Positions 28,697 to 47,883 of a stretch of 49,180 nt of DNA are shown one piece after another. Position numbers and translations under genes: made by a program. The stretch comes from Bacillota bacterium (GTDB taxonomy: Bacteria; Bacillota; Sulfobacillia; JAUYEF01), in the NCBI GenBank assembly GCA_030691635.1, contig JAUYEF010000134.1:1-49180 (forward strand), given 5' to 3'. Position 1 is the first letter of the stretch, and the number at the start of each line of letters is the position of its first letter. The notes beneath the pieces are model-generated. The model had not been told where the DNA came from. It made no database searches and worked only from the letters and a program-made list of their open reading frames with translations.

Positions 28697-30379
28697 ATGG
28701 AGGTGTCTCGGTTGCCAGGTAGTGTGTCCGGCTCAAGACTGGTGTCGGCGCCCCGCGGCACGACGCTGTCCTGCAAGGCGTGGCCGCAGGAAGCGGCCAT
28801 GAGGATGATCATGAACAACCTCGACCCTGAGGTGGCGGAGAAGCCCCAGGAACTCATCGTATACGGCGGCACGGGCAAGGCCGCGCGCAACTGGGAGTGC
28901 TTCGATGCCATCGTTTCTTCCCTTAAGACGCTTGATGACGACGAGACTCTGCTTGTCCAGTCCGGCAAGCCTGTCGGTGTGTTCCGCACCCACGAGCTCG
29001 CGCCACGCGTCCTCATCTCCAACGCGATGCTGGTGCCCGCATGGGCCACCTGGAAGAACTTCTGGGAGCTCGAACAGCGCGGCCTGACCATGTTCGGCCA
29101 GATGACGGCCGGCAGCTGGATCTATATCGGAAGCCAGGGTATCCTGCAGGGAACGTATGAGACTCTCGCGGAGGTCGCAAGACAGCATTTCGGCGGTAGT
29201 CTGGCTGGAAGGCTCGTGCTGACCGCGGGGCTCGGGGGCATGGGCGGCGCCCAGCCCCTGGCAGTGACGATGAACGAGGGAGTCGCGCTTGTGGTTGAGG
29301 TGGACCCAGGGCGGATCCGGCGGCGGCTGGAGACAGGCTACCTGGACGTCGTCGCGGAAAGCCTCGAGCACGGCCTGGCCATGGCGCTGGAGGCGAAGCG
29401 AGAGAAGCGGGCGTTGTCGGTGGCGATTGTCGGGAACGCGTCGGATGTGCATCCGGAGATCGTCCGTCGGTGCATAGTGCCGGATGCCGTGACCGACCAG
29501 ACATCGGCGCATGACGCGCTCGACGGGTATGTCCCAGGACGCATGGGTTACGAGGAAGCCAAAGACCTCAGGCGCAAAGACCGCGACGCCTACCTGGAAG
29601 CCTCCATGAGCAGCATGGCGCGGCACTGCGAGGCCATGGTGGCGATGAAGGACCAGGGAGCGGTGGTGTTCGACTACGGCAACAACCTCCGTGCTCAGGC
29701 ACAGATCGCCGGGTTCTCCAGGGCTTTCGACTACCCTGGGTTCGTGCCGGCCTACATCAGGCCGCTGTTCTGCGAGGGGAAGGGACCCTTCAGGTGGGTC
29801 GCGCTTTCAGGCAACCCGGAAGACATACTGACCACCGACAGGGCTGTGCTCGACCTGTTCCCGCGCAACGAGGCGCTCAGGCGGTGGATAACGCTCGCTG
29901 AGAAGCGTGTGAAGTTCCAGGGTTTGCCCTCCAGGATATGCTGGCTGGGGTACGGCGAGCGCAGGGAATTCGGGCTTGCGATCAACGACCTGGTGCGCTC
30001 GGGAAAACTCAAGGCCCCAATCGTCATCGGCCGTGACCACCTGGACACGGGCTCGGTCGCCTCACCCAACAGGGAAACCGAAGGCATGAGAGACGGGAGC
30101 GACGCCATCGCGGACTGGCCGGTGCTGAACGCCCTGCTGAACACGTCTGCGGGCGCTACATGGGTCTCGGTCCACCACGGCGGAGGGGTCGGCATCGGCT
30201 ACTCGATCCACGCCGGGATGGTGGTGGTCGCCGACGGCACGGATCAGGCCGCATGGAGGCTCGACAGGGTGCTGACCACCGACCCGGGTTCCGGCGTGAT
30301 GAGGCACGCCGATGCTGGGTACCCGCGAGCCGTCGAGTTCGCCAAAGAGTCCGGGATCAAGATACCCATGCTGAAATAG
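28697..30379 (+). CDS. hutU: Urocanate hydratase
   Basis: [145 protein letters not shown]. Confidence 0.96.
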
Positions 30380-30411
30380 GGATCGTGCCCCTTCACTTGC
30401 TTGACAGGCTG

Positions 30412-30447
30412 CCGCCTCCATCTGTTTTCAAACAGAACTGGAGGCGG
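30412..30447 (+). terminator. Terminator-like hairpin after hutU
   Basis: CCGCCTCCA-TCTGTTT-tc-AAACAGA-ac-TGGAGGCGG, nested 9+7 bp stem with a 2-nt bulge; weak T-rich tail (tgtggttttgtg). Confidence 0.7.
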
Positions 30448-30522
30448 TGTGGTTTTGTGAAGGAAGAGAATGGTAATTGTAGAACGTATGAGCAGTGAGT
30501 CCCCGCTCTAGGAGGTGCCGCA

Positions 30523-32382
30523 ATGTGCGCGATGGTTGGAGCGATTGTCGGTGAGCGCGAGCTGGCGGAGATCATTACGCAAGTCTCGCACCAGATGGGG
30601 CAGGATGTGCCCTGCGTGGAGACCACGCCTGAGGGGCTTGTAGGAGCTCTCCGGCTCATGGAACCGCACGGAGTCAGGGCGCTGATCAGTTCAGGCAGGC
30701 TGGTCGACCTGTTGAAATCCGCGACGTCCTTGCCTGTCGTGCCGTGCAATCCCAGCTCGTACGATCTCACCCTCGCCATAGCGAGAGCCAGGGCATACTC
30801 AACAAAGATAGCTTTCCTGTACTTCGGTGAACTGCCCATCAACCTTGGGGAAATGGAAGACTGCCTGGGGATCTCCGTCGGGGCGTTCCAGTCCGGCAGA
30901 AACGCCCAGGACGTGAGGAAGGGGCTCGATCAGGTCAGGGCGGACGGGTATGACGTGCTCGTCAGCGGCGGGGCTGTCGCCGCCATGGCCAGGGGCATGG
31001 GGCTTTCCTCTGTGGCGGTCCGGACAGGCAACGCGACCGTCCGGGAATGCATCGATTCCGCCCTTGATGTTGTCCGCACACAGCAGGCTGGAGAAAGGCG
31101 CACCGCGGCGGCGCAGGCGGCGGTCGAATCTGTGGGCGTCGGGCTCATGGTGACCGAGCGTGACGGCACGGTGCTGTTGATGAACTCAAGCGCCCGGGAC
31201 ATTTCGGGCACGGCCGTCGCCTCTCTGGCGCAGGATGTGCTCGGCCCTGGCTTGTGGGACAGGCTTTCGCCGGGTGGGTCGGCAGTGGCGACCGTCGGCA
31301 AAAGCAGGGTGGTCGTGGACGTGCAGGCCGGCCAGAAGGCCCGGGAGTTCCGCACAGTCGCCATGTTTGACCCACCGGTGCTGCGGCGCTACCTGGCGAT
31401 GCTTTCCGAAGAGACGCTCCTGGCCCCGGAACCCAAGCCCAGCGGCGAGATGGTTATGGCCTCTCCGGAGATGCAGAGCCTCTTGGCGCGCGCGCAGGAC
31501 CTGGCGCGAGGTGACGCCAACGTGCTGGTATTCGGAGAGCCCGGAGCGGGCAAGAGGACTGTGGCTTTCGCGCTCCATTCTGAGAGCCGGAGGCAGCGGG
31601 CGCCGTATTGCCAGATCAACTCGATGTTGCCTGACAACACCGTGCTCTTCGACCTTACCGGAACCTCTCGGCCGGAGGGAGAGGCCTCAGTGCTGGAGCG
31701 GGCCAGCGGTGGGACAGTGTACGTCCACGAGTGCTGGAACCTGAGTGTTGAGGCCCAACGGGTGCTGCTCGAAGCCTCAGAGAGGAAGATGCTTCGCAGG
31801 CAGGACGGCTCCAGGATACCATGCGACGTCCGCATCATGCTGGGTTCGTCCCGGCCGCTCCGCGAGCTGGTGGAGAGGGGCGCCTTCCTCCCCGAGCTCT
31901 ACAATGCGGCGGCGTCCCAGGCTTTGAGGGTGTCTCCGCTGCGTGAGCGGCAGGAGGACATACACCCTTTGCTGGAGTCCTTCTTGAAACGTGAGGGAGT
32001 GCTCGATGGGGCGGTCTCGCCATCTCTCAAGCGCAGGCTTTTGGCCTACCAGTGGCCGGGCAACTGCGCGGAGGTCAAGAACCTCGCCGCGCGGCTGGCG
32101 TCTTTCTACCGCACATTCCCGTCGGCCAACAGGGCATCCCTGGAAAGGGTCGCGTTTGATGAGATTGAGGCGGAGATGCCGTCTGTCCTCCCAAGACAGG
32201 AGGGCATGCTGACCTTGAAGCTCGGCACCATGGAATTCCTTGAAGAGCAGATCCTCGAGCAGATGGAGCGCCTCTCTGGTGGCAACAGGTCAGAGATGGC
32301 GCGGAGGCTCGGTGTGAGCAGGACGACGCTATGGAAGAAGATGCTGCACGGAAGACAGGCGGCAGCGGGCGAAGAGGAGTAG
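30523..32382 (+). CDS. PrpR N-terminal (propionate-regulator-like) sensor + PAS-like + AAA+ + Fis-type HTH transcriptional regulator
   Basis: N-terminus RALISSGRLVDLLKSATSLPVVPCNPSSYDLTLAIARARAYSTKIAFLYF; Walker A VLVFGEPGAGKRTVAFALHSES; RVSPLRERQEDIHPLLESFLKR...YQWPGNCAEVKNL; C-terminal HTH LEQMERLSGGNRSEMARRLGVSRTTLWKKM. Confidence 0.85.
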   Translation: MCAMVGAIVGERELAEIITQVSHQMGQDVPCVETTPEGLVGALRLMEPHGVRALISSGRLVDLLKSATSLPVVPCNPSSYDLTLAIARARAYSTKIAFLYFGELPINLGEMEDCLGISVGAFQSGRNAQDVRKGLDQVRADGYDVLVSGGAVAAMARGMGLSSVAVRTGNATVRECIDSALDVVRTQQAGERRTAAAQAAVESVGVGLMVTERDGTVLLMNSSARDISGTAVASLAQDVLGPGLWDRLSPGGSAVATVGKSRVVVDVQAGQKAREFRTVAMFDPPVLRRYLAMLSEETLLAPEPKPSGEMVMASPEMQSLLARAQDLARGDANVLVFGEPGAGKRTVAFALHSESRRQRAPYCQINSMLPDNTVLFDLTGTSRPEGEASVLERASGGTVYVHECWNLSVEAQRVLLEASERKMLRRQDGSRIPCDVRIMLGSSRPLRELVERGAFLPELYNAAASQALRVSPLRERQEDIHPLLESFLKREGVLDGAVSPSLKRRLLAYQWPGNCAEVKNLAARLASFYRTFPSANRASLERVAFDEIEAEMPSVLPRQEGMLTLKLGTMEFLEEQILEQMERLSGGNRSEMARRLGVSRTTLWKKMLHGRQAAAGEEE

Positions 32383-32412
32383 TCCCAGACCTGAGGAAAC
32401 GGGGGAGCGACC

Positions 32413-33564
32413 ATGACCCTGGACCATATCCTGGCAGACGAGAGCGTGCTGCGAGGGCTTGACTTCCTTGAATCTCATGAGGAAGATGTGATAGAAGAGA
32501 TCTCACGGATCGCCGCCATACCTTCCCCGAGCTATCACGAGCAGGAGCTTGCGGAGTACTACGCGGGGAGGCTCAGGGAGGTAGGGGTCGAGGATGTCAC
32601 GATCGACTCCGAGCGCAACGCGTATGGCGTCATCCGGGGCACGGACGGGCATCCGGCATTGCTCATGAACGCCCACCTGGATACTGTGTTCCCTCTCGGG
32701 ACAAACCTTACAGTGAGGCGCGAGGGCTCCAGGCTGTTCGCGCCCGGGATCGGCGACGACTCCACCGGACTGGCGGCCGTGCTGTGGGCCGCGAGGGCGG
32801 TCAAGGAATCCGGCGTCAGGCTCCGTGGCGACCTCATAGTGGCGGGCAACAGCTGCGAGGAAGGGCTCGGCGATCTCAGGGGCATGAAAGCGCTGATGCA
32901 GGCTCTGAAGGGCCGCGTGGACATGGTCGTCCCGGTGGAGCCTTCCAGCCTGGGCAGGATCGCCAACCAGGGCGTCGGTTCGAGGCGCTTCCGGATCACG
33001 GCGCGCACGCATGGAGGGCACAGCTGGGGCGCGTTCGGGAATCCCAGCGCGATCCATGTGCTGTGCCAGGTGGTCGCGGATATCTCTTCGATCAAAGTGC
33101 CGAGGGAGCCGAAGACCACGTATAACGTTGGCAAGTTCTCGGGTGGTGTTTCCGTGAACACAATAGCGCCGGAGGCGACCCTGGAACTGGACATGAGGTC
33201 GGTCGACGCCACAGAGCTCGCAAACGTCGAAGAAAAGGTACACTCGATCCTGGCGGCTCGTTCCAGGGAATCCGGGGTGGCGCTGGAGACGGTCCTGGTC
33301 GGAGACCGGCCTCCGGGCACGACGCCCGAGTCGCATCCTCTTATATCGAAGATACGTGAGGTCCACGGTGCGCTCGGCATCAAGTCGTTCCTGCATGCCG
33401 GCAGCACGGATGCGAATGTTCCGATGTGGATGGGCGTTCCCGCCGCCACGGTCGGCGTCACGACAGGCGGGAACGGCCACAGGGTGGACGAGTATATCGA
33501 CTTGGAGCCGCTGGGCAAGGGACTCGCGCAGCTGTTCCTGCTGATGACATACCTACTGTCCTGA
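32413..33564 (+). CDS. M20 family metallopeptidase/deacylase
   Basis: PALLMNAHLDTVFPLGTNLT, APGIGDDSTGLAAVLWAARAV, LIVAGNSCEEGLGDLRGMKAL. Confidence 0.88.
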   Translation: MTLDHILADESVLRGLDFLESHEEDVIEEISRIAAIPSPSYHEQELAEYYAGRLREVGVEDVTIDSERNAYGVIRGTDGHPALLMNAHLDTVFPLGTNLTVRREGSRLFAPGIGDDSTGLAAVLWAARAVKESGVRLRGDLIVAGNSCEEGLGDLRGMKALMQALKGRVDMVVPVEPSSLGRIANQGVGSRRFRITARTHGGHSWGAFGNPSAIHVLCQVVADISSIKVPREPKTTYNVGKFSGGVSVNTIAPEATLELDMRSVDATELANVEEKVHSILAARSRESGVALETVLVGDRPPGTTPESHPLISKIREVHGALGIKSFLHAGSTDANVPMWMGVPAATVGVTTGGNGHRVDEYIDLEPLGKGLAQLFLLMTYLLS

Positions 33565-37639: not shown

Positions 37640-37688
37640 AAGCCCCCAGGGCCCCAATAGGCTATGTTAGCCGGGTCCGAGGGGGCTT
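37640..37688 (+). terminator. Candidate structured terminator between asnS and dacF
   Basis: AAGCCCCC (37640-37647) / GGGGGCTT (37681-37688) enclosing GGCTA-tgt-TAGCC, followed by tgtcgttg; weak T tract. Confidence 0.4.
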
Positions 37689-38860
37689 TGTCGTTGCGCA
37701 GCAGAGCATATACACGCATCTTCGCCCTGCTGTTCCTCGTGGTGGTGACCGCCGCGCCCCTGCGTCCGGCAAGAGCGGCGAGCTCTTCCGTCGCTTCCCC
37801 CAGGATAACGGCCGACGCAGGCATCCTGATGGACTTCACCACAGGAGTGGTGCTGTTCGAGAAGAAGGCTCACGAGCTTCGCCACCCCGCGAGCCTCACC
37901 AAGATCATGACCGCCATCGTCGTCCTCGAGACATGCGGGCTGCAAGACGTCGTGACGGTCACGACGGAGGCGACGCGCGTCTCCGGCTCGCGGGCCGGCA
38001 TAAGGCCCGGCCAGAAGTTCACCGTCGAAGACATGCTCTACTCGCTGCTGCTGGAGTCGGCCAATGACGTGGCGCTTGCCCTCGCGGTCCATGTGGCCGG
38101 CTCGGTCCCATGGTTTGCCAAGATCATGAACGAGAAGGCCTGGGAGGCAGGCGCGAGGAACACACACTTCTCCAACCCGCACGGGCTCACCGAGCCAGAC
38201 CACCTTGCCACGGCTTACGATCTGGCTCTGCTGGCCCGGCACGCGCTCCGCTACCCGCTTTTCGCCGAAGCGGTGAGAACGCGTGTCGCGGAGATCGACA
38301 GGCTGGACAAGCCAGTGGTGCTGCGTCTCCACAACACCAACAAGCTCTTGCAGCATTTCGAAGGGGCGGATGGCGTGAAGACCGGCACCACAAGCGCCTC
38401 AGGACGATCGCTGGTGGCCTCCGCCACAAGAGACGACCACAAGCTGGTGAGCGTCGTGCTGCACAGCGACTCGCGCTGGGACGATGCTGCCAGGCTGCTG
38501 GACTACGGTTTCGACAGGTTCGTGCTGCTTTTTCCCTACAGGCGCGGCGACATGGTCCAGACAGTGAGGGTCAAGGGCGGCATGGAAAGCAGGGCCACGC
38601 TGGTCGCCGGGGACGACCTTGCGGTCGTCGCGCCTCGCGAGTACGCCTTACGCCTGGAACTGTCCGACCTTCCTCGGACCATCGATGCCCCTTGCCTGAC
38701 CACCAGGCCTGCTTGCCGGCTGGCTGCGTTCCTTGACGGGCGCGAGCTTGCATCCATACCCCTCTACCCAAAGCGCGACGTCAGGCCCCGTACCCTCTGG
38801 CGGATATTCCTCGCTCACGTGCTCTTGCCGCTGTCCAGGCTGCTCTCCGGTGCAGGATAG
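37688..38860 (+). CDS. D-alanyl-D-alanine carboxypeptidase (DacF-like, S11 family)
   Basis: Signal peptide, HPASLTKIMTAIVVLE (SxxK), SANDVALALA (SxN), DGVKTGTTSASG (KTG). The track start 37664 lies inside the inverted repeat; TTG 37688/37694 is more plausible. Confidence 0.9.
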   Translation: MSLRSRAYTRIFALLFLVVVTAAPLRPARAASSSVASPRITADAGILMDFTTGVVLFEKKAHELRHPASLTKIMTAIVVLETCGLQDVVTVTTEATRVSGSRAGIRPGQKFTVEDMLYSLLLESANDVALALAVHVAGSVPWFAKIMNEKAWEAGARNTHFSNPHGLTEPDHLATAYDLALLARHALRYPLFAEAVRTRVAEIDRLDKPVVLRLHNTNKLLQHFEGADGVKTGTTSASGRSLVASATRDDHKLVSVVLHSDSRWDDAARLLDYGFDRFVLLFPYRRGDMVQTVRVKGGMESRATLVAGDDLAVVAPREYALRLELSDLPRTIDAPCLTTRPACRLAAFLDGRELASIPLYPKRDVRPRTLWRIFLAHVLLPLSRLLSGAG

Positions 38861-38944: not shown

Positions 38945-41203
38945 GTGTCTAGCACCATGCCCAACCTCACCCAGGCGGAACTCCTCCAGGACCTGGAAAG
39001 GCAACAGGGGACGGTTTTCCAGCGCACGATGCTCCAGCTGCTGTCGAGAGGACGGTCGGGGATCCGGCAGGTGGCCTCCAGGCTCGGCGGCGAGATGGAC
39101 GCGCGGCTCGACGCCGCGCTGAAGGCCGCCGGAAGACAGGTCATCGAGATGGTGGTCAGTGCCGGAACGCTGGACGAGGAGTGCGGCGTCGCTCTGCTCT
39201 TGCGCGTCGAGCCGGGGGATCTGGTGGAAAAGGCCTCAGAACTCTGGGAGAGAGGCGATAGGGAAGAGGCGATGTCGATCGTCCGGCGGCTTGGGCCGAC
39301 CGGCGCCGGGACTGGCGCGCTCCAACTCATGCACGCGCGGATTGCGCTCGCCGGCGGGTTTCCTTCTGATGCGCTCGCGCTATACATGGGGGCAGCGGAG
39401 GCCGGTCTAAGCGCGCGCGGCATCATGGAAGGCGTGTCGTTGGCCCTCGAATGCGACCGCCTGGAGGAGGCGGCTGCTGTGCTGAGCCACGCTCCTCTGG
39501 ACGGGACGGGCCGGTTCGACTTGCCCGCTGGGGAAGTGCTGTCTAGAGCTTTGCACCGAGAAAATGGACAAGTATTGCAGGCATGCTGCGGGCGCCTGGC
39601 ACGGCAGGGGCCGGCGCTGCTGGCCTCGTCCATGCTCGCGGCTGTCGAGATAGTGCGTAAGTCCAACACTGACACGATCCGGGACATGCAGCAGCGGATA
39701 GGCGACCTTGGGGGCGCTCTCTCGAAGGCGGCGTCAAGCGCCCAGGACCTGCTGAGCGAGACGCATCCAGTATCCGAGGTGGCCGCCAGCGTGGGTGGGG
39801 CGCTCCGGGAGTTCGAGGAGATTGCGGTGCGGCTGGCACGAGGCCTTGAGGCAGGTCTGCCAGAAGAGCATGAAAGCACAGGCCCGGGCCCGCTGGTCGA
39901 GGCAGTCCTCGCATCGCCCGTCGAAGCCGGCCAGGTGGCCTCGGCGCTGTCGGGAATCAGCGCGGAGGATCTGGCGCAATCGTGCGCAGATGGCCTGCGG
40001 GCGGCGCTGGACCTGGAAACGGCGTCTGTGCTCAAGGGCCCATGGGGTAGGACGGCAGAGGCTCTCACGGAAAGCCTGGCCACGGGGCGCGCGCTCAGAG
40101 ACCTGCTCAGCCGCGCAGCAGATGTGCCCCGGACTGCGTTCCTTGAGCGGGTGTCGACGGACATAAGCTTCATGAGCGCCTACCTGGATGACGCCTCGCT
40201 GAGCCTGGTGATGAGCGAAGGCGGGCAAGAGCGGTATGAGCTTCTCACCGGAGCGCTGGAAGACTCACTCAGGGCGCCCCAGACGCTCGCAAGAGACAGA
40301 CAGGCAGGGTTGTCCGCGGACATCCAGCGCAACCTACCGCGGCTCAGGATCATACGGCCGTGGATCTCACGCGCGCTCCAGAACCTGGTCTCCCTGGCGG
40401 TGAGGCAGGCAAGGCCGGGCGGTCTGGTGTCGCTGAGCGCCCGCTTGCCCGTCCAGGGCGCCGGGGTCGAGATATCGCTGAAAGGCGACGTTATCCGGGT
40501 GCCGCCGGGCCTTCACACACTCCACCAGGTACTCGCACAGCATCGTTGGCGAATGGATCAACCGCGCCAGGCAGGGCCTGTGACGCAGGTCGTCATCCTG
40601 GCGCCTGAGTCATCCGAAGAAGACACGCTGAGAGCCGAGATCGCCGGCTATGACGCGCTTGCAGCGGGCACGAAGCAGGCGCTCCGCGCGGCCGAGGCCC
40701 TGGGCGGCTCGGCAGAGAGCGCAAAGGCAGCCGCGTTCCTGTACGGCAAGGCGCTCGAGATCGAAATTGCAGCCACGCTGCTCCCAGACCTTGAGCGGCA
40801 TGTCCTGCTGCCGCGCGCTCTTTCGTTCAAGAACGACCCACAGGCGTTCTCCGATGCCGCCAGAGCGGCGGCCTCCGCCGTGGGGGGCGCGGAGAGAGAG
40901 GTGTCGAAAAGGGTGGAGCAAATCGTGGACGCCGTCGTGAGGAACAGGGTCCAGAAGGAGACCGGGGACTGGCGGTCGCTCGCCGTGGCGCTTGCCATAT
41001 TCGGACTGGCGGGAAGCGGTCGCGGCGCCGCAGGCAACGATGACCTCTTGAGCGCGCTGTACAGGGCGGAGCAGGTCCGCGACGCGTCCCGGGCGGACAT
41101 CTCGTCCGTGGAGACGGCAAGGTCTCTCTGCCGCTCCGTGCTCTCTGGCCTGTCCGGGATAAAGGCGGAAAGAATGGGGCGGCGCCCGCCCCCAAAAAGC
41201 TAG
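38945..41203 (+). CDS. Large protein of unknown function; TPR-like N-region, degenerate histidine kinase/HATPase-like module, possible HEPN-like C-terminus
   Basis: 752-aa open frame. RALQNLVSLAVRQARPGGLVSLSARLPVQGAGVEISLKGD...LHTLHQVLAQHRWRMDQPRQAGPVTQVVILAP follows the HATPase_c secondary pattern without the G1/G2 glycines. GTG 38945 or ATG 38957. Confidence 0.75.
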   Translation: MSSTMPNLTQAELLQDLERQQGTVFQRTMLQLLSRGRSGIRQVASRLGGEMDARLDAALKAAGRQVIEMVVSAGTLDEECGVALLLRVEPGDLVEKASELWERGDREEAMSIVRRLGPTGAGTGALQLMHARIALAGGFPSDALALYMGAAEAGLSARGIMEGVSLALECDRLEEAAAVLSHAPLDGTGRFDLPAGEVLSRALHRENGQVLQACCGRLARQGPALLASSMLAAVEIVRKSNTDTIRDMQQRIGDLGGALSKAASSAQDLLSETHPVSEVAASVGGALREFEEIAVRLARGLEAGLPEEHESTGPGPLVEAVLASPVEAGQVASALSGISAEDLAQSCADGLRAALDLETASVLKGPWGRTAEALTESLATGRALRDLLSRAADVPRTAFLERVSTDISFMSAYLDDASLSLVMSEGGQERYELLTGALEDSLRAPQTLARDRQAGLSADIQRNLPRLRIIRPWISRALQNLVSLAVRQARPGGLVSLSARLPVQGAGVEISLKGDVIRVPPGLHTLHQVLAQHRWRMDQPRQAGPVTQVVILAPESSEEDTLRAEIAGYDALAAGTKQALRAAEALGGSAESAKAAAFLYGKALEIEIAATLLPDLERHVLLPRALSFKNDPQAFSDAARAAASAVGGAEREVSKRVEQIVDAVVRNRVQKETGDWRSLAVALAIFGLAGSGRGAAGNDDLLSALYRAEQVRDASRADISSVETARSLCRSVLSGLSGIKAERMGRRPPPKS

Positions 41204-41934
41204 TCCTGAGCGGATCTCAGCAGTTCACCTACTGTAGACGCTTGCAGGCCCCTGGCCCGCAGATCGCTGACGATGCCGGGAATCACCTCCGCTGTGGTGG
41301 CGAACATGTCGGACGCGTGAAACCGGACAATGTCCCCCTGCCTGGCTTTACCGGCAACCCTCCTTCGGATGTAGTCTGCCGTGGTGTTCCGCCAGTCGAA
41401 CGAGTCCAGGCTCCAGGTTATTGTTGAGTACCCCACCTCCAGTGCGGAACGTATCACCCTGTCGTCGTAGTCGCCGTTCGGAGGGCGAAAGAGGGAGGGC
41501 TCGATGCCTGTGAAGCTCTTGAGAATGTCGTGTGTCCTCGCGATTGATTCTCTGACCCTGCTGTCCTCCGCTGCTGAGAGGTTCTCGTGCCAGTAGCCCT
41601 GCGATGCGATCTCGTGCCCTTCCTGGACGATCCTGCGGACAACATCGGGATGCGCCTTGGCATACGGCCCGGCCACGAAGAACGTCGCTTTGGCTCCTGC
41701 GGATGCCAGCGCATCGAGCACTTTACCTGGTGCGGACTCTCCAAACGTCAGGTCGAACGTGAACGCGACTATCTTCCTTGACGTCTCGACTCTCGAGACT
41801 GGCTTCAAGGAAGACGCGGCCATTCTTGCCGTGAACGCTCCGGCACAGATCCTTGCGGCCATGACGAGCAAGACGGCCACAAGGAAGATGAGGATCCTGA
41901 TCCTGGTTGCCCGCGTTATGCCGATGAACACCAA
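41200..41934 (-). CDS. Polysaccharide deacetylase (NodB homology; PdaB-like)
   Basis: KIVAFTFDLTFGESAPGKVLDALASAGAKATFFVAGPYAKAHPDVVRRIVQEGHEIASQGYWHENL, RPPNGDYDDRVIRSALEVGYSTITWSLDSFDWRN. Confidence 0.9.
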   Translation of the reverse strand: MVFIGITRATRIRILIFLVAVLLVMAARICAGAFTARMAASSLKPVSRVETSRKIVAFTFDLTFGESAPGKVLDALASAGAKATFFVAGPYAKAHPDVVRRIVQEGHEIASQGYWHENLSAAEDSRVRESIARTHDILKSFTGIEPSLFRPPNGDYDDRVIRSALEVGYSTITWSLDSFDWRNTTADYIRRRVAGKARQGDIVRFHASDMFATTAEVIPGIVSDLRARGLQASTVGELLRSAQD

Positions 41935-45661: not shown

Positions 45662-46768
45662 ATGCAGAGACTGGCGTCTAACGTGCATCACGGGCGTCTC
45701 GCGGGCCGGGCGGTCCTGCTCGTCGTGGCGCTTCCAGCATGCCTCACGGTGGCGGCTCTTGCGGGATGTATGCGCGTGGGTCCTTTCCGGAGACCGCTGC
45801 TCACTTCGCGCTTCGAAGTCATGGCCTTTGCCATGGGGCAGGGCGAAAGGGGGCTTCCGGGGTCCGTCGAGAGCCTCAAGGCCCATATCGCCACCATCGA
45901 CACCGTGCTGGACTTCGGTGGGCTGGTCTGCGACGACGGTGCCGTGGAGGCCCAGGCATCACCTGGGCAGCCTGCGACCAGAGACATCACCCGCGATCAC
46001 GGTAAGCGTCTCATGCTGCTGGTGTCGAACGCGTCGCCCGGTGGGCAGGGACGCACCGCAATGTTCGAGAAAGCCCGTGACCGGGCGAGGACCGCGCAAA
46101 GCCTCACGGCGAAGGTCGCTCACGAGGGATACGATGGCCTGCACCTGGGATTCGATAGGATGCCCGCGCGCGTCAAGCCCCTGTACAGCGCGTTCGTCAG
46201 GGACCTCGCCAATGCGCTGCACGCCAAGGGCAAGACGCTCGGTGTCTCCGTCTTCCCGGTGGTGGATATGCCGCCCGGCACCTGGGGGGCCTTTGACTAC
46301 AGTGTCATCGGCAAAGAGGCCGACTACGTCGTCCTCTGCGCGTACGACCGGCACGACCTGGCGACTGGACCGGGCGCAATTTCGCCGGATGCATGGGCCG
46401 AAGCCGGCTTGAGAAAGGCGCTGGCCGAGATCGACCCGGCGAAGGTGCTGCTGGGCATCGGCGTCTATGCATACGACTGGCCCCAGCGCATGGGCATAGA
46501 ACCGCCGGAATACCTGTCCGCACAGCAGGCGCTGCAACGGGCCGCCGCAAATGGCGCAAAGATCACGATCGATGCCGCATCGCAACAGAAGACGTTCAGG
46601 TACCGCCTCGAGGGCACCGACCGGACTGTCTGGGTCCAGGATGCGTACAACGTCAGGTCGAAAATCAACCTGGGAAACAAGTACGGCCTGCGCGGCATCG
46701 CCATCTGGAGGCTTGGGCTCGAGGATGACCTGACGTGGAGCGTCGTATCCAGCATGCATCGCGAGTAA
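45662..46768 (+). CDS. GH18-like glycosidase-fold lipoprotein (SleL/YaaH-like), altered catalytic motif
   Basis: Lipobox LTVAALAGC; HEGYDGLHLGFDRMPARVKPLYSAFVRDLANALHAKGKTLGVSVFPVVD, YSVIGKEADYVVLCAYDRH, KVLLGIGVYAYDW, YGLRGIAIWRLGLED. Confidence 0.75.
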   Translation: MQRLASNVHHGRLAGRAVLLVVALPACLTVAALAGCMRVGPFRRPLLTSRFEVMAFAMGQGERGLPGSVESLKAHIATIDTVLDFGGLVCDDGAVEAQASPGQPATRDITRDHGKRLMLLVSNASPGGQGRTAMFEKARDRARTAQSLTAKVAHEGYDGLHLGFDRMPARVKPLYSAFVRDLANALHAKGKTLGVSVFPVVDMPPGTWGAFDYSVIGKEADYVVLCAYDRHDLATGPGAISPDAWAEAGLRKALAEIDPAKVLLGIGVYAYDWPQRMGIEPPEYLSAQQALQRAAANGAKITIDAASQQKTFRYRLEGTDRTVWVQDAYNVRSKINLGNKYGLRGIAIWRLGLEDDLTWSVVSSMHRE

Positions 46769-46944
46769 TCGCCGCCGAAATGAGGCCGGACCCCGCTTCG
46801 ATCCGCCTTCCCGCGGTAGAATAAACTGGAATCAGGTACTTATGCTGCGTTTTTATGAGGTAGGCTCAGCCAGACCCTCCAGAACCTGAGCACTTTCCCA
46901 CGAAAAGAGACTTCCACCTGTGACTTCCCCGCGACATCCCTTCT

Positions 46945-47001
46945 AGAATGGACATGTCCGTTCTCATCGAATGGATGCATCCATTCGATGGATGCAGCCA
47001 T
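46945..47001. promoter_or_regulatory. Three consecutive palindromes (candidate operator array) upstream of amidase
   Basis: AGAATGGACATGTCCGTTCT (46945-46964), CATCGAATGGATGCATCCATTCGATG (46965-46990, perfect 26 bp), ATGGATGCAGCCAT (46988-47001). Confidence 0.6.
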
Positions 47002-47025
47002 TCTCAGAATCAGGGTGATGGTGCC

Positions 47026-47883
47026 GTGCGTTTTTCCATGAGATCGAGATTCGCTCTGCTGTCGCTGATCGCCATCATGCTTCTACCGCAGATCTGCTCG
47101 GCGGCTGCGCTGAACGGGTATGGAGACCGCGGGACGGCCGTGCGCGACGCGCAGCAGGCGCTGGTGAGGTCAGGCTTCAACCCCGGGCCGGTCGATGGAG
47201 TGTTTGGGCCGAGGACGCTCGCGGCGGTGAAGGCCTTCCAGAAGGGACGCGGTCTTGCCGTGGACGGCGTGGTCGGCCCGGCCACGCTGGCGGCGCTCGG
47301 GACCGTCACGCTGGCCGCCAGGTCGGCACGAGCGCCTCTGGCAGGCAAGACGATCGTCATCGACCCGGGCCACGGGGGGTACAACCCGGGCGCGCTGGGT
47401 GTCGACGGTTCGCGAGAGGAAGACAACGTGCTTGCGATTGGGCTTCACCTGAGAGACCTGCTCACGAACGCCGGTGCGCAAGTGTTGATGACCCGGTCCA
47501 CGGATGTGGAGCCCAGCCTGGCGCAACGTGTATCACTGGCGAACACGAACAAAGCTGCCCTCTATGTTTCGGTCCACAACAACTCGTACAAGGACCCAGC
47601 CGCGTCGGGAGTCATGACGTTCAGCCGGTACGGCGATGCACGCTCGCAGAAGGTGTCGACCGTGATCATGGAAGAACTGAAGAAGTGGACGGGCATGACG
47701 AACAAAGGAGTCGAGCAGGGGAACTACTATGTGCTGAGGAACACGTCGATGCCTGCGGTGATCGCAGAGATCGGCTTCATGACGAACTGGTCTGACGTCC
47801 GCATCCTCAAGACCGCCGTATTCCGTCGCAGCGCGGCAGAGGGCTTGTATTACGGCATTCTTCGATTTCTGACTCAGGGGTAG
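47026..47883 (+). CDS. Secreted N-acetylmuramoyl-L-alanine amidase (Amidase_3) with peptidoglycan-binding domain
   Basis: Signal peptide MRSRFALLSLIAIMLLPQICSA; PG_binding_1 RDAQQALVRSGFNPGPVDGVFGPRTLAAVKAFQ; Zn ligands IDPGHGGYNPGA, REEDN, VSVHNN, AEIGFMTN. GTG 47026 (RBS agggtga) is preferred over the track ATG 46948. Confidence 0.92.
   Translation: MRFSMRSRFALLSLIAIMLLPQICSAAALNGYGDRGTAVRDAQQALVRSGFNPGPVDGVFGPRTLAAVKAFQKGRGLAVDGVVGPATLAALGTVTLAARSARAPLAGKTIVIDPGHGGYNPGALGVDGSREEDNVLAIGLHLRDLLTNAGAQVLMTRSTDVEPSLAQRVSLANTNKAALYVSVHNNSYKDPAASGVMTFSRYGDARSQKVSTVIMEELKKWTGMTNKGVEQGNYYVLRNTSMPAVIAEIGFMTNWSDVRILKTAVFRRSAAEGLYYGILRFLTQG

Follow-up and report, generated by a model that had tools for sequence, protein, structure and literature searches.

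The 752-aa product encoded in the window (the whole 49,180-nt stretch of DNA analysed here) is probably a cytoplasmic, non-phosphorylating pseudo-histidine-kinase that has been retained as a binding or conformational module, a reading to which we give a probability of about 0.8. Only a handful of pseudo-histidine-kinases have been studied. The locus appears to record a kinase turning into a non-catalytic binding protein, and distant relatives in the same chromosomal slot retain what looks like a working kinase together with its regulator. The gene and the parts of its product were as follows:

38945–41203, forward strand: putative pseudo-histidine-kinase family protein, soluble, 752 aa (open reading frame; full-length homologues in several families of the class)
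38957–39199, forward strand: N-terminal helical domain, residues ~5–85, conserved in the family (alignment; AF2 pLDDT 86–91; dN/dS)
39200–39619, forward strand: TPR-like helical hairpins, residues ~86–225 (AF2 helix pattern)
40040–40216, forward strand: DHp-like region without histidine, residues 366–424 (alignment with the H-boxes of L051 and L052)
40232–40606, forward strand: degenerate CA (HATPase_c-like) domain, residues 430–554 (CA HMM; hhalign; Foldseek)
40382–40405, forward strand: N-box equivalent NLVSLAVR, residues 480–487, with Leu for the Mg-binding Asn (alignment with kinases)
40466–40507, forward strand: G1 equivalent VEISLKGDVIRVPP, residues 508–521, with DxGxG lost (alignment with kinases)
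40610–41191, forward strand: all-helical C-terminal domain, residues ~556–749 (profile matches in two classes; AF2)

The open reading frame starts with GTG; an alternative ATG at 38957 is equally plausible and agrees in length with relative P0005. The peptide of the initial annotation was found in frame inside it. The GC contents per codon position (0.72/0.51/0.78) were like those of the neighbouring genes and unlike those of the antisense frame. No transmembrane segment was found, and the maximum Kyte-Doolittle value (19 aa) was 1.39, which indicated a soluble protein. A Pfam scan of the protein alone found no family at E ≤ 1, so that the HATPase_c cut-off was not reached and no PAS domain was seen; the corresponding NCBIfam scan gave at most a 14-bit NblS match. 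The family has no Pfam or NCBIfam entry. Weak matches of the protein to DNA polymerase mu were taken as chance.

Residues ~396–554 of the product stem from a histidine-kinase core (DHp-CA), as seen in both the ancestry and the fold of the CA domain. The protein was weakly similar to true kinases by BLAST. An HMM of the CA domain, trained on 16 ordinary histidine kinases, matched residues 440–517, ending near G1, with E=8e-8; the same HMM gave no match up to E=5 in 336 shuffled or reversed family sequences. Profile A2, restricted to degenerate members, retrieved ordinary histidine kinases through its first half (positions ~13–157) with E down to ~1e-9, and hhalign comparisons of degenerate-only core profiles with real kinases reached 97.9% (E 6.4e-13) and 98.6% (E=6.5e-16). 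The best match among PDB sequences was DivL (4q20), which was weak (E 0.0073) and lay over the core.

The AF2 model of the window protein (pLDDT 72, overall pTM 0.40) was built from 10 sequences; because two of these carried kinase motifs, its fold evidence is not independent of the homology. Its top Foldseek matches in the PDB were DHp-CA or CA structures of histidine kinases (ZraS first; HK853, DivL, and PhoR CA), and the PhoR CA domain aligned with a TM-score of 0.83 by target length and an rmsd of 2.3. The modelled elements were, in order, the DHp-like helix (396–424), a strand (430–433), a helix (434–451), two strands (455–460 and 466–469), the N-box helix (471–488), two strands (494–500 and 507–514), a short helix (524–532), and a final strand (541–554). 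Residues 350–394 of the DHp-like stretch were poorly modelled, with low pLDDT at 366–391. This element order and the HMM match with its clean controls upheld the histidine-kinase layout that the initial annotation had read at 40138–40612, and the fold search that it had proposed as a check also turned out in its favour. The core is present as claimed, but the remnant begins earlier, with the DHp equivalent near residue 366 (DNA ~40040). That the kinase likeness arose by chance or from composition, as the empty single-sequence Pfam scan might suggest, is extremely improbable in view of the agreeing profile, HMM, hhalign, and fold evidence and the clean shuffled and reversed controls.

The catalytic residues were compared by aligning the window protein and six other degenerate members with four ordinary kinases. 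There was no histidine in residues 359–430 of the window protein, and hence no phospho-accepting His; the counterparts of this DHp region are the H-boxes ILHELKNSL in L051 and LHDIKNNF in L052. The N-box stretch LQNLVSLAV aligns to NLxxNA and reads NLVSLA, with Leu484 in place of the Mg2+-binding Asn. G1 reads KGDVIR instead of DxGxG, and the segment of the ATP lid and G2 (GxGxGL) has been deleted just after residues 508–521. The missing G1 and G2 glycines and the lack of a clear H-box His had been correctly noted at first. The statement that the N-box Asn is present in LQNL was wrong, as the Asn retained there is the first one of NLxxNA.

The N-box Asn, G1, and G2 were also absent from the six other degenerate members, so that the family alignment, a further check proposed at the outset, found the ATP-binding residues gone in seven proteins. 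Close homologues with intact G boxes and a sequence error here had been named as a way in which the claim could fail. Homologues with G boxes do exist, but only distant ones: the motifs of L052 are intact (HDIKN, N-box, DSGPG, and GMGLGL; Pfam HATPase_c 1.8e-12), and those of L051 are partial (HELKN, N-box, DRGPG, and an altered G2; Pfam HATPase_c 4.8e-9). As the loss recurs in several families, a sequencing error in the window does not account for it. From these residues we strongly infer that the window protein no longer hydrolyses ATP, and it would probably neither bind ATP usefully nor phosphorylate anything. Catalytically odd proteins can retain weak nucleotide binding. Of the non-ATP-hydrolysing scaffold first proposed, the derivation from a GHKL kinase is supported and the lack of hydrolysis strongly indicated, while the word scaffold is conjecture.

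In one pair of close relatives, P0003/P0004, purifying selection acts on the dead CA domain (dN/dS 0.27, 66% identity). The corresponding values were 0.29 for the N-terminal domain and 0.40 for the C-terminal domain of this pair, and the DHp-like (0.52) and TPR parts were looser, with dN/dS about 0.5. The terminal domains of the pair L074/L075 showed dN/dS of 0.12–0.18, and the N-terminal domain ranged from 0.12 to 0.29 across three close relative pairs. The product thus has what marks a pseudokinase, a kinase-derived core that lacks the catalytic residues and is under selection, the selection having been measured in P0003/P0004; for the lineage of the window itself we infer constraint from the pairs of relatives. 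Simple decay of a gene without function would agree with the loss of kinase residues in many members and with the absence of a detectable gene in most genera of the class. However, it is very unlikely, as long intact reading frames were found in about a dozen species, synteny is conserved, and purifying selection acts on the dead CA and terminal domains of relatives.

A genome search from the window protein found distant relatives within the same class. Profile A2, made from six relatives whose alignment diverged too much to serve as a search pattern, led to three further members, and profile A4 (C-terminal domain) extended the family to a second class of this phylum. The C-terminal domain was matched in about 10 of the 88 sampled genera of the class, including one false positive (G072), where the matching protein (L072/L079) was a T2SSE-type ATPase. 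A contig scan with P0001 gave no match, and one with P0003 returned its own record only. The family architecture comprises a conserved N-terminal domain with the pattern L..DL.R..G....E..L.LL.RGR.G, TPR-like helices (TPR models matched weakly in relative P0002), the kinase remnant, and the all-helical C-terminal domain. Kinase motifs were kept in only two members, as the full set in L052 and a partial set in L051. The family trees had long branches and separated neither the order nor the number of kinase losses. On the N-terminal side of their main core, the 900-aa relatives L013, L014, L050, L051, and L052 seemed to contain another HATPase-like copy, more degenerate than the first, with moderate hhalign support (82–86%); none was seen in the window protein.

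The gene occupies a slot with the order UPF0182 - asnS - rodZ-like - dacF - gene - pdaB - mrfB/yprB - mrfA/yprA - miaB-like, with variations: the rodZ-like gene is absent from the window, and no dacF was seen at L015. In the second class, bacA, ftsK, and a rodZ-like gene are found in the vicinity of the family gene. The neighbours in the window and the upstream genes at three other loci were as follows:

37664–38860, forward strand: dacF-like D-Ala-D-Ala carboxypeptidase, conserved upstream neighbour (Pfam Peptidase_S11 1.2e-58; synteny)
41200–41934, reverse strand: pdaB-like sporulation polysaccharide deacetylase, conserved neighbour (Pfam; NCBIfam TIGR02764)
L012:12489–13307, L015:875–1657, and L017:1272–2051: MinD/CooC-like ATPase genes directly upstream of degenerate members

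The top NCBIfam match of the pdaB-like product was TIGR02764 (E 1.4e-55), under the cut-off of that model. Indirectly, the rodZ-like, dacF, and pdaB genes of the neighbourhood point to a possible function in controlling the envelope or sporulation. Farther along the window, at 45662–47883, a GH18-type glycosidase and an Amidase_3 protein with a peptidoglycan-binding domain were further cell-wall neighbours.

An NtrC-type regulator (Response_reg + Sigma54_activat) was located directly upstream on the same strand only at L051 and L052, and these two regulators shared 55% identity. It was absent from the eight other loci, and a whole-genome search of those eight genomes found paralogues and no orthologue; an apparent regulator in G043, which contains a TGA, proved to be an ordinary paralogue that has a kinase of its own beside it. 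The regulator was thus found beside 2/2 loci with kinase motifs versus 0/8 others (Fisher p=0.022, with shared ancestry ignored). At four of the eight loci without it (L012, L015, L017, and L054), its position was occupied by a CbiA/MinD/CooC-like ATPase, whose CooC label came from reading its sequence and is putative. At L054:6945–8278 (G013), the CbiA/MinD-like ATPase gene was followed by a 182-aa protein consisting of the family C-terminal domain alone.

One syntenic position therefore holds a kinase with its regulator, partly or fully dead versions without it, versions neighbouring an ATPase, and a version with only the C-terminal domain, a range against which it can be tested in what order the kinase was lost and the partner changed. 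A more speculative and rather unlikely reading is a partner swap in this slot, by which an ancestral kinase with an NtrC-type regulator would have given way to a pseudokinase whose conserved C-terminal domain works with the MinD/CooC-like ATPase. If so, an ATPase switch took over from phosphotransfer signalling.

Another explanation is that the dead core, as in DivL, still docks a response regulator encoded elsewhere, senses its phosphorylation, and relays this to another protein. DivL is the best PDB sequence match and among the top fold matches, and its catalytic domains are reportedly put to new use in sensing a phospho-RR (PMC4211667). However, this is rather unlikely here: the slot's own response regulator is missing at every degenerate locus, the DHp half, which is the docking site, is the worst conserved, and DivL is a PAS-domain protein from another phylum.

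NifL controls a sigma-54 activator by contact and not by phosphorylation, and it keeps ADP binding. A histidine-kinase-shaped protein governing such an activator through direct contact would fit the pairing of the kinase-motif relatives with an NtrC-type activator and the presence of a PrpR-type sigma-54 activator in the window (30523–32382). It is improbable for the window protein, as the PrpR-type activator is 6.5 kb off, of a different type, and not adjacent in relatives, and the boxes have been lost, whereas NifL still binds ADP. A urocanase, the PrpR-type activator, and an M20 peptidase lie in a row at 28697–33564, possibly as a histidine-use operon.

For the pseudokinase retained as a binding or conformational module, we propose that the N-terminal domain and TPR-like helices would receive a partner or signal, that the kinase-derived helices and sandwich would act as a dimerising or conformational linker, and that the conserved helical C-terminal domain would be the output surface. 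The protein would then work through protein-protein binding and not through phosphorylation.

No other part of the family was as widely conserved as the C-terminal domain. Its AF2 model (16 sequences) had ten helices, pLDDT 90.7, and pTM 0.87, and found no fold match in the PDB better than E 1.3; by sequence, nothing in the PDB was better than 0.29, and Pfam gave neither a match nor a shared family. A HEPN-like identity was supported by neither Pfam nor PDB. The domain is a candidate new domain and may represent a new fold, possibly with an envelope or sporulation role in little-studied Bacillota.

The kinase-motif relatives resemble NtrB/ZraS/AtoS-type kinases: L051 and L052 score to AtoS/ZraS models and adjoin an NtrC-type regulator, as those kinases do, and ZraS is the top fold match of the window model. 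Compared with such kinases, the His, the Mg-binding Asn, G1, and G2 are missing from the window copy, as is the regulator gene from its locus, and the family adds the N- and C-terminal domains. Among the studied proteins of this pseudokinase kind, DivL and RocA come closest. DivL of Caulobacter likewise has a histidine-kinase core without kinase activity, and its orthologues without DHp-CA occur where its regulator DivK is absent (PMC4211667), which parallels the core decay and missing adjacent regulator in the family studied here. The window protein is not of the DivL family proper, as Pfam found no PAS domain and the core match was weak; DivL has PAS input domains and a His-to-Tyr change, whereas in the window protein the input is TPR-like, the C-terminal domain is unique, there is no transmembrane segment, and the ATP lid and G2 are deleted. 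RocA of group A Streptococcus is a Firmicute protein that has been described as a pseudokinase accessory to the two-component system CovRS (PMC7028121); likened by description and not by sequence, it differs from the window protein in architecture and context.
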